Origin: Nitrospinae bacterium RIFCSPLOWO2_12_FULL_45_22
GTDB lineage: Bacteria; 2-12-FULL-45-22
Direction of reading: 5' to 3'
Length of the DNA: 5,000 bases
Assembly: GCA_001803565.1 (NCBI GenBank)
Contig: MHDQ01000254.1
Coordinates: 940-5,939, forward strand
Below are positions 1 through 5,000 of the stretch, in pieces. The notes below the pieces were generated by a model, which was not told where the DNA came from, made no database searches, and saw only the letters and a list, made by a program, of their open reading frames with translations. The translations under genes and the position numbers were made by a program. Each line of letters opens with the position of its first letter. Within the stretch, counting starts at the first letter, position 1.

Positions 1-20
1 TACTGGAATGTGTAATAAAT

Positions 21-93
21 GCCCGCGTAGCTCAATTGGCGGAGCACGTCATTCGTAATGATGAGGTTGTCGGTTCGACTCCGATCGCGGGCT
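21..93 (+). tRNA. tRNA-Thr (anticodon CGT)
   Basis: Reads ACG codons. A full cloverleaf can be folded by eye. The acceptor stem GCCCGCG (21-27) pairs perfectly with CGCGGGC (86-92). The D stem GCTC (30-33) pairs with GAGC (42-45), with the GG pair at 38-39 in the D loop. The anticodon stem CGTCA (47-51) pairs with TGATG (59-63) with one G-T pair. The anticodon loop is TTCGTAA, with T53 before anticodon CGT (54-56). The variable loop has 5 bases. The T arm (69-85) carries the TTCGACT loop. Base 93 (T) is the discriminator, and the 3' CCA is not encoded. Only 20 bases precede it, so its promoter lies outside the window. No second copy of its 3' end is visible further right, so it does not look like a used integration site here. 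Confidence 0.95.
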
Positions 94-135
94 TTTACTA
101 GTAAGGCATAGTCAAAGGTAGACCCCTCCTGATTC

Positions 136-219: not shown

Positions 220-1608
220 ATGGTCATTAACAAAAAAAAGGTATTCGTATTGGGACTGGACTCGATACCACCAGAACTCCTATTTGATAGATGGTTAGAC
301 CAGCTACCCAATATAAAACGCCTTATTTCCAATAGTATCTATGGTGAAATGAAGAGTACCATCCCGGCTATCACCTGTCCGGCATGGGTGTCTATGATGA
401 CTAGCGCCAATCCAGGCAGGTTGGGATTGTACGGGTTTAGAAATCGATCGGACTATGATTATGAGGGATTATCATTTGCAAATTCAAACACCATTCATCA
501 GGATACCGTTTGGGATATTTTATCAAAAATAGGGAAGAAGGTTGTGGTTATTGGCGTACCCATGACGTACCCGCCAAAACCTGTCAATGGGTGCATGGTA
601 ACATGCTTTATGACGCCCGATACGAGTTGTGATTATACGTATCCACACGAGTTGAAAACTGAGGTAGAAGCCGTTTCAAATGGCTATATCCTCGATGTCG
701 GGGAGTTCCGGAGTGATAATAAAGAGCCTATTTTAAAAACCATCTATGATATGACGGAGAAACGATTCCGGCTAACCAGACATTTTATTCGTTCCAAAGA
801 CTGGGATTTCTTTATGGTTGTAGAAATGGGTACCGACAGGATTCATCACGCATTCTGGAAATATTTTGACGAGGAACATCCTAAGTATATCTCGGGTTCT
901 CAATATCGGGATGCCATTCTGAATTATTACAAATACCTTGATGATGAAATTGGTGAGACATTGAAACTATTATCTGATGACACCTTGATTTTTATTGTAT
1001 CCGATCATGGCGCTAAAAAGATGGTAGGCGGTATCTGCATCAATGAATGGCTAATCCAGAATGGCTACCTGAAGCTGGTACAATATCCGTCAGAGACAAC
1101 GCAATTCAATAAACTCATTGTCGACTGGGAAAATACGATGGTCTGGGGTGAGGGCGGATATTACGGCCGAATTTTTATGAATGTGAAAGGCCGTGAACCC
1201 AGTGGAGTCATTGCACCGCAGCACTATGGGCATTTTCGGAATGAATTGATAAGGAAGTTGGAAGATTTACGGGATGAGCATGGCAGGAATATTAATACAA
1301 AAGTCTTCAAACCCGAAGATATTTACACGGAATGCAATGGCATACCTCCTGATTTGATTGTGTACTACGGCGATCTCTCTTGGCGGTCTATTGGCAGTGT
1401 GGGGAACAGGACTATATGGGCAAGTGAGAACGACACCGGTACTGATGATGCAAACCATTCCCAGTACGGTATCTTTATTATGCGAAATGGCAGGAGTCAA
1501 TATGGAGTAAGACGTGAAGGTGTGACTCTATACGATATTGCACCGACGATACTGAACTATATGGGTGTTAAAGTACCAGAAGATATGGAAGGGAAGGCGC
1601 TTTTGTAG
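220..1608 (+). CDS. Alkaline-phosphatase-superfamily phosphohydrolase / type I phosphodiesterase-like protein
   Basis: A 462-residue predicted cytoplasmic metal-dependent hydrolase of phosphate mono- or diesters, resembling the predicted phosphohydrolase/phosphomutase group (COG3379-like) and the type I phosphodiesterase/nucleotide pyrophosphatase fold. The substrate cannot be told from sequence. The two-metal site is visible in family order: D14 in VLGLDS; T52 in the PAITCPAW segment as likely nucleophile; D206 and H210 in DRIHH; D262-H263 in IVSDHG; H413 in DANHSQYG. The C-terminal YDIAPTILNYMGV is also typical of the superfamily. There is no signal peptide or membrane segment, so it is not a periplasmic PhoA-type enzyme. 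Start ATG 220 is the first in frame and has no clear Shine-Dalgarno sequence. The length looks complete. It is AT-leaning, unlike the cassette genes of mixed composition after 1840, and is taken as part of the resident chromosome. The fold is near certain; the specific activity is unknown. Confidence 0.9.
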   Translation: MVINKKKVFVLGLDSIPPELLFDRWLDQLPNIKRLISNSIYGEMKSTIPAITCPAWVSMMTSANPGRLGLYGFRNRSDYDYEGLSFANSNTIHQDTVWDILSKIGKKVVVIGVPMTYPPKPVNGCMVTCFMTPDTSCDYTYPHELKTEVEAVSNGYILDVGEFRSDNKEPILKTIYDMTEKRFRLTRHFIRSKDWDFFMVVEMGTDRIHHAFWKYFDEEHPKYISGSQYRDAILNYYKYLDDEIGETLKLLSDDTLIFIVSDHGAKKMVGGICINEWLIQNGYLKLVQYPSETTQFNKLIVDWENTMVWGEGGYYGRIFMNVKGREPSGVIAPQHYGHFRNELIRKLEDLRDEHGRNINTKVFKPEDIYTECNGIPPDLIVYYGDLSWRSIGSVGNRTIWASENDTGTDDANHSQYGIFIMRNGRSQYGVRREGVTLYDIAPTILNYMGVKVPEDMEGKALL

Positions 1609-1690
1609 TTATTTTACAAAAAATGTTCTTGCCTTTTTAGCAAAAATATTTTTAACAACGTCAGATGAATTTTCGCTCATTAAAATTATA

Positions 1691-1719
1691 TTGACATTGT
1701 TTTGCCAACTACTTAATAT
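1691..1719 (+). promoter_or_regulatory. Sigma-70-like promoter upstream of the cassette array
   Basis: A perfect -35 box TTGACA (1691-1696) is followed after exactly 17 bases by TAATAT (1714-1719, 4/6 match to TATAAT). Transcription would start near 1726 and run toward the cassettes. It sits about 120 bases before the first cassette boundary, roughly where an integron cassette promoter (Pc) would be expected relative to attI, although Pc is usually inside or next to an integrase gene that is absent here. A terminator-like hairpin lies between it and the first cassette. Confidence 0.55.
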
Positions 1720-1742
1720 ACCGGCAAGTTGTATACAAAGTT

Positions 1743-1794
1743 TATTATATGCCCAGATGGACATATAATATTCCACTGTAAGAGTATTATATGT
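1743..1794 (+). repeat. Three-copy palindromic motif able to form two alternative hairpins
   Basis: TATTATATG occurs at 1743-1751 and again at 1785-1793, and its exact reverse complement CATATAATA lies between them at 1762-1770. The middle copy can pair with the left copy (9 bp, 10-base loop) or with the right copy (10 bp as ACATATAATA with TATTATATGT, 1761-1770 with 1785-1794, 14-base loop), but not with both. The matches are perfect. Low sequence complexity makes some of this expected in AT-rich DNA, but three exact 9-base copies within 52 bases is notable. Confidence 0.7.
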
Positions 1795-1800
1795 ACTAAT

Positions 1801-1827
1801 AGCCGTAAAGCAAGACGGCTTTTATTA
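1801..1827 (+). terminator. Rho-independent terminator-like hairpin
   Basis: AGCCGT (1801-1806) and ACGGCT (1815-1820) form a perfect 6-bp stem around an 8-base loop, followed directly by a T-rich run ending near 1827. It points in the + direction. It could end the phosphohydrolase transcript, about 195 bases after its stop, or a short transcript from the 1691 promoter. It lies just before the first cassette and would reduce read-through into the array. The stem is short, so efficiency may be partial. Confidence 0.6.
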
Positions 1828-1846
1828 CGCCTAATTCATGTTAGGC
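1828..1846 (+). other. attI-like integron recombination site (left end of the cassette array)
   Basis: The core site GTTAGGC (1840-1846) matches GTTRRRY. It is preceded by GCCTAA (1829-1834), an inverted copy of TTAGGC, after a 6-base spacer. This resembles the simple-site layout of class 1 attI, where CCCTAAAAC stands a few bases before GTTAGGC. The long imperfect palindrome of an attC is missing upstream, so it is not the attC of an earlier cassette. Cleavage is expected between G1840 and T1841. An integrase gene usually adjoins attI, but here only the terminator, promoter and a chromosomal gene are seen. It could instead be a secondary genomic site at which cassettes were inserted. Confidence 0.5.
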
Positions 1847-1863
1847 CACTAAGACAATCTATT

Positions 1864-1867
1864 GGAG
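1864..1867 (+). promoter_or_regulatory. Shine-Dalgarno GGAG deciding the start of the cassette A gene
   Basis: GGAG at 1864-1867 stands 6 bases before ATG 1874. An in-frame TTG at 1862 overlaps this site and has no site of its own, so ATG 1874 is preferred. Confidence 0.65.
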
Positions 1868-1873
1868 CCACGC

Positions 1874-2446
1874 ATGGTTTCAGACTTGAAATGGCGCACT
1901 GGATTTGGATGGTCATCTCTACTGCTTTTCCTAGCCTCCTTGGCTGGCGCCATCCTGCTTCAGGGCTTTGTTCGTGGAGCGTTCGCAGTCTTGGTGGCTC
2001 TTTTCGGAACTTGGCTCGCGTATCGATTTCACACGTGGAATGGGTTACCTTGGCGAAAGGTCCATTTCAGGGCGATGCTTCTCTATTCAGTGTCTGCTGG
2101 GAAAGAAACGCAGGCAGCTCAAGACCAGAAAAGGCCCTTTAGTGTACCGAACGCCTGCAAAGAAATGGCGATGCTCATGTGCGGGTCCCATAAGGGCATT
2201 TTCGTCGATGCTATGATGTCCGAGCTATTGACCGAGAAAGGCGCGTATTTTCGGGATCTTTTGCGCTCCCATGGCCCTGCTCTGCGGCCGAACTTGTCGG
2301 CACGAACACTGTCAGACATATCATCTACAGCCGAGGCGATGGACTTCTGCCCTCAACTCGTAATCGGAAATATCATTGAAAACACCTACGGACCTGAAGA
2401 AGCCGCCCGCTATGTTCTGGCTGTACTTGCTCGTCAAGCATATTGA
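1874..2446 (+). CDS. Cassette A: two-helix membrane protein of unknown function
   Basis: A 190-residue protein that I do not recognise. The N-terminus carries two hydrophobic helices, about residues 13-29 (WSSLLLFLASLAGAILL) and 35-52 (GAFAVLVALFGTWLAYRF), separated by a short QGFVR turn. This suggests a helical hairpin in the inner membrane. A soluble C-terminal region of about 135 residues follows, with positive residues right after helix 2 (R51, R61, K62, R66), consistent with a cytoplasmic tail. There is no catalytic motif that I can defend, and the tail is predicted mostly helical. It is the first gene of the array, 27 bases after the core site, and its stop lies 12 bases before attC. 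It is clearly richer in G and C than the flanking chromosome, as expected of an acquired cassette. Start ATG 1874 is chosen over the in-frame TTG at 1862 because GGAG stands 6 bases before it. Confidence 0.8.
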   Translation: MVSDLKWRTGFGWSSLLLFLASLAGAILLQGFVRGAFAVLVALFGTWLAYRFHTWNGLPWRKVHFRAMLLYSVSAGKETQAAQDQKRPFSVPNACKEMAMLMCGSHKGIFVDAMMSELLTEKGAYFRDLLRSHGPALRPNLSARTLSDISSTAEAMDFCPQLVIGNIIENTYGPEEAARYVLAVLARQAY

Positions 2447-2458
2447 AGTTCACGATGG

Positions 2459-2582
2459 GCATAACAAGGGCGTCAACACCGACCGATGCCACATTGGTTT
2501 TACAAGGTCTGGTTCCCAGATTCAACCGTTTCCCTCTCGTCGGCGTCCTCTCGGCGCCGGCGGGTTACGCCCGGCGTTAGGT
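2459..2582 (+). repeat. attC site of cassette A (124 bases)
   Basis: R'' GCATAAC (2459-2465) and R' GTTAGGT (2576-2582) flank an imperfect palindrome. The L'' arm GGGCGTCAAC (2468-2477) pairs with the inverse of L' (GGGCGTAAC when read on the other strand), leaving one unpaired C in the L'' arm, the typical extrahelical base of attC. The central region is long and GC-rich. R'' differs by one base from GCCTAAC, the complement of cassette A's own start. Confidence 0.9.
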
Positions 2583-2611
2583 GTTTAACATCACATTACA
2601 CTGCAACATAT

Positions 2612-3449
2612 ATGAACCTGTCAAACGAAGAAAGAAATCGTATTCTGAAAAAAAAGCATCAACAATTGTATGGTGACTGGAAACGAAAGAATGGTCCCTG
2701 CATTATCTGTGGTGAAGGAGAGGGAAACGAAAAAGACCATTTACCGCCGAAGGTTCTGTTCCCCAGAAGCTTAAGGAGTGACATAACAGAATTCTTCACT
2801 TTTCCAGTTTGCTCGAACTGCAACCGAGGTTCATCAGACGAGGACTTCTTGTTTAGTGTCTTATTGTCATTTGGTCTCAATCAAATATCCATTTTGAATA
2901 ATCAAAAGCCTACTGACCCTGATTTGCTTGCATTGTATGACCAGGCACAGGGTCACTTCCAAAATCCAACAGAAGCTAAACATCGTCAGGGCTTGCTGCA
3001 AAACTACATTGGGAAAGATCCCTATAGTGGCAGAGATGCGATCAACATCAAGAAGTTGCCCATAAACCAAACCACAACCAAGATAGTAAAATCCATTTAG
3101 CTGGTTACATACTGGTGGTGACATTCTTCAGAGGTACAACCCTGGCTGGTGGATCCTTCCCTCTATTGATACATCGAAAACACACTTCATTGAAAAGCAC
3201 CTGAAGATGACTCATGCTGAAATTCAATGGGGGGATAGGTTTATTTCGCATTTTTCAATCGGCCATCCGGAAAATGGTGTTGGTGGGCTCATTTCATGTT
3301 CCCTTCACTTCTATACTAAGAAGACAGTAGGTAAAGGGATGAGTTGGTATTTGAGAGCTTCGCCAGTCAAGACTACAATCAATGACGTAAGTCTGTATGA
3401 ACTGTGCACCTCAGTATGGGGAGCAGCAACAATAAAACCGCGAAGATGA
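2612..3449 (+). pseudogene. Cassette B: HNH-type endonuclease gene broken by a single-base frameshift
   Basis: The first frame (2612-3100) encodes 162 residues with a zinc-ribbon HNH core: C30-x2-C33, D42-H43 followed by LPPKVLFP, then C67-x2-C70-N71. This is the CxxC, D/E-H, CxxCN layout of HNH nucleases, which nick or cut DNA with one metal ion. It then hits TAG at 3098-3100. The next frame is open from 3090 to 3449 and continues in character (SWLHTGGDILQRYNPGWW). Removing one T from TTT 3096-3098 joins the halves as KSISWLHTG into a 278-residue protein, filling the cassette up to 9 bases before attC. It may be a real inactivating mutation, a sequencing error in a short homopolymer, or less likely programmed frameshifting. 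ATG 2612 is preferred because earlier in-frame codons lie inside the preceding attC. No clear Shine-Dalgarno sequence is seen. The 162-residue product alone retains the nuclease core. Confidence 0.75.
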
Positions 3450-3458
3450 AGATTGCTC

Positions 3459-3582
3459 ACCTAACCAGGCGTTGTAGCTGACCTGTCACGTTTGCATTTC
3501 GCCCTAGCGTGACCGAGCGTAGGCCAAGGCGAAGGAGAAGACGGGCGGCAAGCGCGCCAGGCAGCTAAACGCAACGTTGGCC
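3459..3582 (+). repeat. attC site of cassette B (124 bases)
   Basis: R'' is ACCTAAC (3459-3465), the exact complement of GTTAGGT, where cassette B itself begins (2576-2582). The right core is GTTGGCC (3576-3582), which departs from GTTRRRY at one base. The arms pair well: on the left GCGTT at 3469-3473 and TAGCTGACCTG further in; on the right the inverse reads GCGTT and TAGCTGCCTG, leaving one unpaired A. Smaller palindromes, such as TTCGCC with GGCGAA, fill the centre. Same length as the cassette A site, but a different sequence. Confidence 0.9.
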
Positions 3583-3593
3583 AGAGATAAATG

Positions 3594-4217
3594 ATGATAA
3601 CTGAACTACTAGAGAATCTAAATCATAGCGGCATTGCGTACGCCATAGTCTGTGCCCTTTCGGCATGGCTTGGCAAGGTTTGGGCGGCGCGCATTGGTCG
3701 CTCTGAAAACTCGAAACTTCAAGAACAAATCACGAAGCTCAAGGATGATCTTGGGCGTGCGCAAAAGATACTGTCCGGCGAAGTGCAGAAATCCGTACAT
3801 GTGCACAAAGTGCAGTTCGAAAAGGAGTTCCTTGTATATCAAGACCTGATGAAGCAAGCGAATCGTCTGCGTCGAGCCTTCTTCACTCTTCACCGCAACC
3901 TTCAACCCATTTTCGATAACAAGAAAGAGGCTGATACACACTTTAAGCCTCTGAGAAAGGATTTTGCCGCCGCCTTCGAAGTCGCCAGAGACACGGTAGA
4001 GGAGAACAGACCTTTCTATGCAGAAGAGGTGTTCGCACAATGTGACCGTCTTATAGAAATGGCCGTGACGGAACTCGGCAGTTTGAGCGTAGCAGACGGC
4101 CTTGGCATCCTCACCTTCAATGAAATCGACAAAATGAAGAAGGAGTTGACCCAAGTTCACAAGGATCTCACCGATAGTATTCGTCATCGTCTAGATACAC
4201 TCGTAATCATCGAGTAA
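3594..4217 (+). CDS. Cassette C: membrane-anchored coiled-coil protein of unknown function
   Basis: About 207 residues with one N-terminal hydrophobic helix (IAYAIVCALSAWLGKVWAARI, about residues 14-34 by the upstream ATG), followed by charged, heptad-like helical sequence (KLQEQITKLKDDLGRAQKILSGEVQK). Next comes HKVQFEKEFLVYQDL (about 72-86), then a long helical region to the end. From memory, a segment of the type HKxxFExEFxxY after a WLGKVWA-like anchor recurs in a widespread, uncharacterised bacterial protein group, but I cannot verify it here. Likely topology is a short outside N-terminus, one inner-membrane helix and a cytoplasmic helical body. No enzyme motif is seen. Two adjacent ATGs exist (3591, 3594); AGAG at 3583-3586 is better spaced for 3594, but the choice is weak. 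The stop lies 5 bases before attC. Confidence 0.8.
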   Translation: MITELLENLNHSGIAYAIVCALSAWLGKVWAARIGRSENSKLQEQITKLKDDLGRAQKILSGEVQKSVHVHKVQFEKEFLVYQDLMKQANRLRRAFFTLHRNLQPIFDNKKEADTHFKPLRKDFAAAFEVARDTVEENRPFYAEEVFAQCDRLIEMAVTELGSLSVADGLGILTFNEIDKMKKELTQVHKDLTDSIRHRLDTLVIIE

Positions 4218-4222
4218 GATTT

Positions 4223-4292
4223 GGCCAACAAAGAGGTTGAGCTTATTCTGAACCCGTTGCGGGTTCAGAAACGCTCACCTCCAACGTTAAGT
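4223..4292 (+). repeat. attC site of cassette C (70 bases)
   Basis: R'' is GGCCAAC (4223-4229), the exact complement of GTTGGCC at the start of cassette C (3576-3582), even though that core is non-consensus. The right core is GTTAAGT (4286-4292). The L arm GAGGTTGAGC pairs with the inverse of GCTCACCTC with one extra T. The tip is a clean hairpin, TTCTGAACCCG (4245-4255) with CGGGTTCAGAA (4260-4270). This is the shortest and most regular attC of the array. Confidence 0.93.
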
Positions 4293-4296
4293 CAAC

Positions 4297-4302
4297 AAAG
4301 GA
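4297..4302 (+). promoter_or_regulatory. Ribosome binding site of the cassette D gene
   Basis: AAAGGA at 4297-4302, 9 bases before ATG 4312 and just inside the cassette boundary. It therefore travels with the gene when the cassette moves. Confidence 0.55.
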
Positions 4303-4311
4303 TACCACTTC

Positions 4312-4857
4312 ATGTTTGGATTTCTGAAGAGCAAGCACGGCGACGAAGAACTCTCGCGAGAGTGTGTACGTCACGTCTTCGCGGTTGGACGTGAGACATG
4401 CCCATCGATCGTTGAGGCCGTCCAGATGTTTACGCAAGGCGATGTTTCCTTTCCCGTCAACGATGCTGCGAGTCTTGATATCTCGCTGGCGATACTCGGC
4501 ACATCGCTTGCCGTCCTGAAGGGGCATTCTCAAGTCATGACCGCAGACCGGGGAACTCACATTGAGACATTCTGCAAACATTCAATCCAAAGGGACTATG
4601 ACCTGCCTTCCGACTCCGCTGACAAGTTAAATGACACACTCGACGAGTATCAGGCCGCATTTGAGAAGTCGATGGCAGGCAAAAACAACCCCTTTGGAGA
4701 GACATCAGGAATGATGTTAGTTCGATGCCTTGGGCCTCGCGCAAAAGCTCTGTGCCTTCCGGGGACATCAGCCCTGAGATTTTTTGTGCACCAAGTCGTC
4801 GGCGATCTAATGACGATGACAGTAACGCAGGTATTGACGTTCTGGAAAGGAAAATGA
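4312..4857 (+). CDS. Cassette D: soluble hypothetical protein
   Basis: A 181-residue protein that I do not recognise. It has no signal peptide or clear membrane helix. The most hydrophobic stretch, LDISLAILGTSLAVLKG (55-71), contains Asp and Lys and looks like a buried helix. It is followed by a charged helical part with KLNDTLDEYQAAFEKSM, then a moderately hydrophobic C-terminus rich in L, V, F and T that ends in FWKGK. Four cysteines (18, 30, and two in the later half) are scattered and form no zinc motif. The sequence begins MFGFLKSKHG, as some small cytosolic proteins do, which is not diagnostic. Start ATG 4312 has AAAGGA 9 bases before it and lies 20 bases after the attC core. The stop lies 8 bases before the next R'' box. 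Placement and frame length support a real gene; function is unknown. Confidence 0.8.
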   Translation: MFGFLKSKHGDEELSRECVRHVFAVGRETCPSIVEAVQMFTQGDVSFPVNDAASLDISLAILGTSLAVLKGHSQVMTADRGTHIETFCKHSIQRDYDLPSDSADKLNDTLDEYQAAFEKSMAGKNNPFGETSGMMLVRCLGPRAKALCLPGTSALRFFVHQVVGDLMTMTVTQVLTFWKGK

Positions 4858-4865
4858 AAGAGATG

Positions 4866-4945
4866 GCCGAACAATCGCATAGAGAGCGACGAGGAATAGC
4901 GAGCCGAAGCGCGCCATTCCTTGCGTCTCATGCGTGACGTTAGGC
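4866..4945 (+). repeat. attC site of cassette D (80 bases)
   Basis: R'' GCCGAAC (4866-4872) and R' GTTAGGC (4939-4945) flank arms CGCATAGAGA (4876-4885) and, inverted from the right, CGCATGAGA, leaving one unpaired A. The central part around 4890-4915 is partly palindromic (GGAATAGCG with CGCGCCATTCC). Unlike cassettes B and C, R'' does not complement this cassette's own start (TTAAGT). It fits the following GTTAGGC better. Confidence 0.88.
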
Positions 4946-5000
4946 ATAGCGCGGAGGTCATTAATAAGAGGAAGTTAATATGGGTTGAAGTAATCAGGAG
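4940..5000 (+). mobile_element. Start of cassette E (truncated by the window edge)
   Basis: The cassette opens with TTAGGC. A strong Shine-Dalgarno-like AGAGGAAG (4967-4974) stands 5 bases before ATG 4980, but that ATG reads Met-Gly-stop (TGA 4986-4988). The frame that reads ATA TGG GTT GAA is open to the edge but has no standard start codon in view. The real gene may start beyond the window, use an unusual start, or carry a frameshift right after its start. Confidence 0.6.

Follow-up and report, generated by a model that had tools for sequence, protein, structure and literature searches.

The 5,000-base window (the whole stretch analysed, positions 940–5939 of contig C254) contains a real array of at least four gene cassettes. 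By definition the locus counts, as far as the contig runs, as a CALIN (cluster of attC sites lacking an integron-integrase), and its right end falls beyond the contig. We consider it about an even chance (probability roughly 0.5) that an IntI coded elsewhere in the genome inserted the cassettes in trans, and we favour insertion over the less probable loss of intI. The features of the window are as follows.

21–93, plus strand: tRNA-Thr (CGT), also the sole Rfam match in the window
220–1608, plus strand: chromosomal gene of the type I phosphodiesterase/nucleotide pyrophosphatase family (PF01663)
1691–1719, plus strand: sigma-70-like promoter TTGACA-17-TAATAT directed at the array (consensus match only)
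1801–1825, plus strand: intrinsic terminator-like hairpin (1801–1820) and T tract, directly ahead of the array
1829–1846, plus strand: left boundary GCCTAA-N5-GTTAGGC, an attI-like core with its inverted partner
1841–2576, plus strand: cassette 1, with an ORF at 1874–2446 (190 aa, membrane-type protein)
2458–2582, plus strand: attC1, ~124 nt, 18.3 bits by covariance model
2577–3576, plus strand: cassette 2, with an HNH-like protein split over two frames (2612–3100 and 3102–3449)
3459–3582, plus strand: attC2, 124 nt, 31.9 bits by covariance model
3577–4286, plus strand: cassette 3, with an ORF at 3591–4217 (208 aa)
4223–4292, plus strand: attC3, 70 nt, 17.9 bits by covariance model
4287–4939, plus strand: cassette 4, with an ORF at 4312–4857 (181 aa)
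4866–4945, plus strand: attC4, 80 nt, 36.2 bits by covariance model
4940–5000, plus strand: beginning of either another cassette or the right flank, where the contig stops

Used alone, a hand-made attC pattern scorer was too unspecific against shuffles, so we trained a covariance model that excluded the window, using 12 attC sites taken from six other contigs of the genome. Searching both strands of the contig returned exactly four full-length sites, all on the same strand, in agreement with the four attC proposed by the initial annotation. These were the best four matches (E = 4.9e-7, 4.6e-6, 0.0048 and 0.006), with the next at E 1.4, and 90 kb of control loci gave no match up to E 2 with the same model. 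At E 0.01, 33 of the 41 compared genomes were without a model match. Folds and model alignments of the sites revealed the R''-L''-L'-R' hairpin with extrahelical bases, and nine pairs of the model's 11-pair inner helix carried changes on both sides. All five of the core sites claimed, of the GTTRRRY type, were located, at 1840, 2576, 3576 (reading GTTGGCC), 4286 and 4939.

Every attC marks the end of an ORF of ~160–210 aa. None of the cassette ORFs matched a Pfam or NCBIfam family above cut-off. The cassette 1 protein has a relative encoded on a Carboxydocella plasmid, and the frameshifted cassette 2 matched HNH/PtuB-like proteins weakly. In a plasmid collection the array DNA had no match, and the cassette proteins matched a single plasmid protein at 52%.

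The host genome is metagenome-assembled, with 3.67 Mb spread over 321 contigs and 85% completeness. The contig that carries the array has 5,939 bases and stops at window base 5000; comparing its end with the other contigs of the genome revealed no overlap. The upstream phosphohydrolase and tRNA expected from the first reading are the PF01663 phosphodiesterase and the tRNA-Thr listed above. The best relatives of the phosphodiesterase in other bacteria share 51–58% protein identity, and the gene was not found in the one same-order genome compared. An empty-site search with window DNA 1–1900 against 40 relatives gave only tRNA or 64–66% coding matches and one short match at 76%. Left of the window lies a 32-N scaffold gap, then another copy of tRNA-Thr (97% identity across 96 bases), and beyond these a gene that, by inspection of its sequence, is presumably kdsA. 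The doubled tRNA-Thr across the gap (L001:812–1039, window 1–100 and leftward) is either a true tandem or a scaffold artefact.

No match to the PF00589 and TIGR02249 profiles (the latter at E<=10) was obtained anywhere on the 5.9 kb contig, and tblastn of the genome's own IntI proteins against the contig gave nothing credible. The contig thus has no intI within 5.9 kb, of which ~55 bases lie to the right of the last attC, compared with ~4 kb in the CALIN criterion. In a complete integron intI adjoins attI; here the phosphodiesterase sits in that place, and the canonical intI position is empty because phosphodiesterase, tRNA-Thr, scaffold gap and kdsA fill the left side. The genome as a whole is different: the earlier statement that no integrase is in view holds for the contig and fails for the genome, which codes for two complete IntI (contigs C243 and C304, 468 and 454 bits, cut-off 265) and contains many relics. 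C304 carries a canonical integron, with intI on one strand and six attC on the opposite strand, left of intI. IntI fragments occur on ~14 more contigs; those at contig ends may merely be cut, and intI is decayed inside C115, C136, C317, C287 and C95. The C115 intI lacks its middle, and C95 retains just ~50 C-terminal IntI residues beside an array.

The left boundary of the array, GCCTAATTCATGTTAGGC, combines a GTTRRRY core with an inverted L box ahead of the first cassette and was found once genome-wide. A core with an inverted partner is expected of an attI simple site. G+C is ~0.35–0.45 to the left of the boundary and climbs to ~0.5 within cassette 1. The promoter and terminator said to precede the array are both present; promoter counts in the region were no higher than in shuffles, and terminator counts were above them. 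The structured stretch between the two has a fold z of -3.1, and no shuffle was as stable. At 1728–1791 we noticed a palindrome, TTGTATACAA, together with three hairpin arms (TATTATATG/CATATAATA/TATTATATG) that exclude one another; this stretch is a candidate leader or small RNA.

We aligned positions 1609–1839 locally to the genome's own attI platforms, leaving the core out and deriving p values from shuffles in eight comparisons. The platforms on C115 and C95 gave p = 0.012 and 0.07, neither significant after correction for the eight comparisons. Homology of this region to attI platforms had at first seemed strong, with 2 of 1996 genomic windows ranking that high, the platform itself being one of the two. 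Because that high rank came partly from the common core, which inflated the score, homology is not established. The left end may be attI-like, as its core and inverted partner suggest; its similarity to attI platforms is no better than chance after correction.

Insertion in trans is favoured because other attC sites without intI exist in the genome, and because the promoter–terminator unit stops just ahead of the boundary. The held-out attC matches, the absence of intI from the contig, the two complete genomic intI and the G+C step at the boundary also count in its favour. In the mechanism we propose, a genomic IntI would act in trans and recombine G|TT at a target that is either a secondary (attG-like) site or an orphan attI-like one. 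A short transcription unit would end in a terminator ~15 bases ahead of this target, with promoter, structured stretch and terminator probably forming one small host unit that is finished before the array. The cassettes would stay IntI substrates, excisable or reorderable via their folded attC hairpins, and recombination may continue. Against insertion counts the boundary itself, whose full 7-base core and inverted partner are not required by attG and are usual in attI. The unassembled right end also counts against it, as it leaves room for an unusually placed intI at the far end.

The same boundary is what makes it conceivable, though we lean against it, that the locus is an integron platform without its former integrase. 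Positions 1691–1846 would then be the old Pc promoter and attI, with intI deleted between 1609 and 1690. Such decay has ample precedent in this genome, where intI relics at all stages are seen (C95 and C115 among them), and TTGACA-like -35 boxes lie 125–149 bases ahead of the core in C115 and C95, likewise in the window. However, not one intI residue remains at the locus, a terminator stands between the promoter and the array, and the alignments to these two platforms, given above, are not significant after correction.

That the contig stops at base 5000 also raises the question of an ordinary integron cut at the contig end, with the integrase past that base in inverted or rearranged order. 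CALIN counts are inflated by draft assemblies (PMC9024848), and the intI relics of C136 and C287 share the strand of nearby attC. We nevertheless judge this unlikely, since the attI (left) side is in view and occupied by a chromosomal gene, and all four attC point away from it. An assembly artefact, in which a chromosomal contig was joined to an array from another place, is very improbable. Arrays do fragment assemblies, and the scaffold gap with duplicated tRNA ends lies on this contig, just left of the window; but the gap is ~1.8 kb from the boundary, there is no N within 1609–1840, and the boundary coincides exactly with the integrase core.

Taken singly, the locus is an ordinary CALIN, an already described class. 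The initial annotation had offered a lost integrase, an attC cluster lacking integrase and a secondary insertion site; these were right in kind, the second being a descriptive name and the other two published routes. Like members of the IntegronFinder class, the window has at least two same-strand attC and no intI nearby on the contig; such clusters are frequent where the genome also has a complete integron and can be mobilized in trans. No feature distinguishes the window from the class, bearing in mind that its right end falls beyond the contig. The attC architecture is common to the window and the C304 integron, but in C304 a complete intI stands divergent from the six attC, whereas the window has no intI. 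The window's attC are also lower-scoring than those of C304, whose sites trained the model, and more varied in length. Cassette insertions at attG secondary sites were reportedly described by Loot et al. in 2024. As in attG insertions, the cassettes of the window adjoin an ordinary gene away from intI; unlike them, the boundary pairs a complete 7-base core with an inverted partner, and insertion here is putative. Passages in PMC11023631 and PMC12901181 cite attG secondary sites. According to PMC8618304, CALINs can arise when an IntI located elsewhere inserts cassettes off target, when intI is lost, or through rearrangement. IntegronFinder 2.0 counted 2,961 CALINs and 2,760 complete integrons, with a warning on draft-assembly inflation (PMC9024848), and in Xanthomonas about half of the genomes have CALINs apart from the integron locus, with widespread intI decay (PMC12444791).

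The genome-wide load (~65 attC, two complete intI and many relics) is more interesting than this locus. The attC lie on 30 of the 321 contigs (loci L060–L079, L201–L220), and 21 of these 30 have no intI match; because the contigs are short, some of the 21 will be cut integrons. Several intI-free attC clusters or lone attC sit well inside contigs (C132, C156, C215, C313). The next richest of 40 compared genomes had 14 attC matches. The host genome could serve as a natural test case for how integrase-free arrays originate, by trans insertion or by integrase loss. We are rather doubtful of a broader picture in which cassettes are scattered across the genome by one or two active integrases as platforms repeatedly duplicate and decay, so that the whole chromosome would be a cassette store and the window one among ~20 integrase-free sites.

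For the lone attC on C132, C74, C114, C279 and C195, the right-hand cores after GTT deviate from RRRY (for example GTTGCTA, GTTCAAA and GTTGTCA), which fits expectation if the right half derives from a secondary target. The intI relics of C136 (L064:8143–8657) and C317 (L065:8631–9142) have the same internal deletion (~residues 125–268) and the same frameshift. Over 569 bases their identity is 85%, and their outer flanks are unrelated. The common deletion in unrelated flanks suggests that a deleted intI was copied within the genome. On the 3' side of the relics in C136 (L064:8600–8800) and C287 (L067:6190–6430) is a conserved promoter-like TTGACA stretch ~100 bases long, followed by attC on the intI strand; these two are possibly integrons with a reverse-oriented integrase. 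Finally, a ~300-base repeat, 90–94% identical, is common to C304, C140 and C28 (L061:6480–6900, L077:6469–6775, L073:344–2532), where it lies beside short intI-like fragments.
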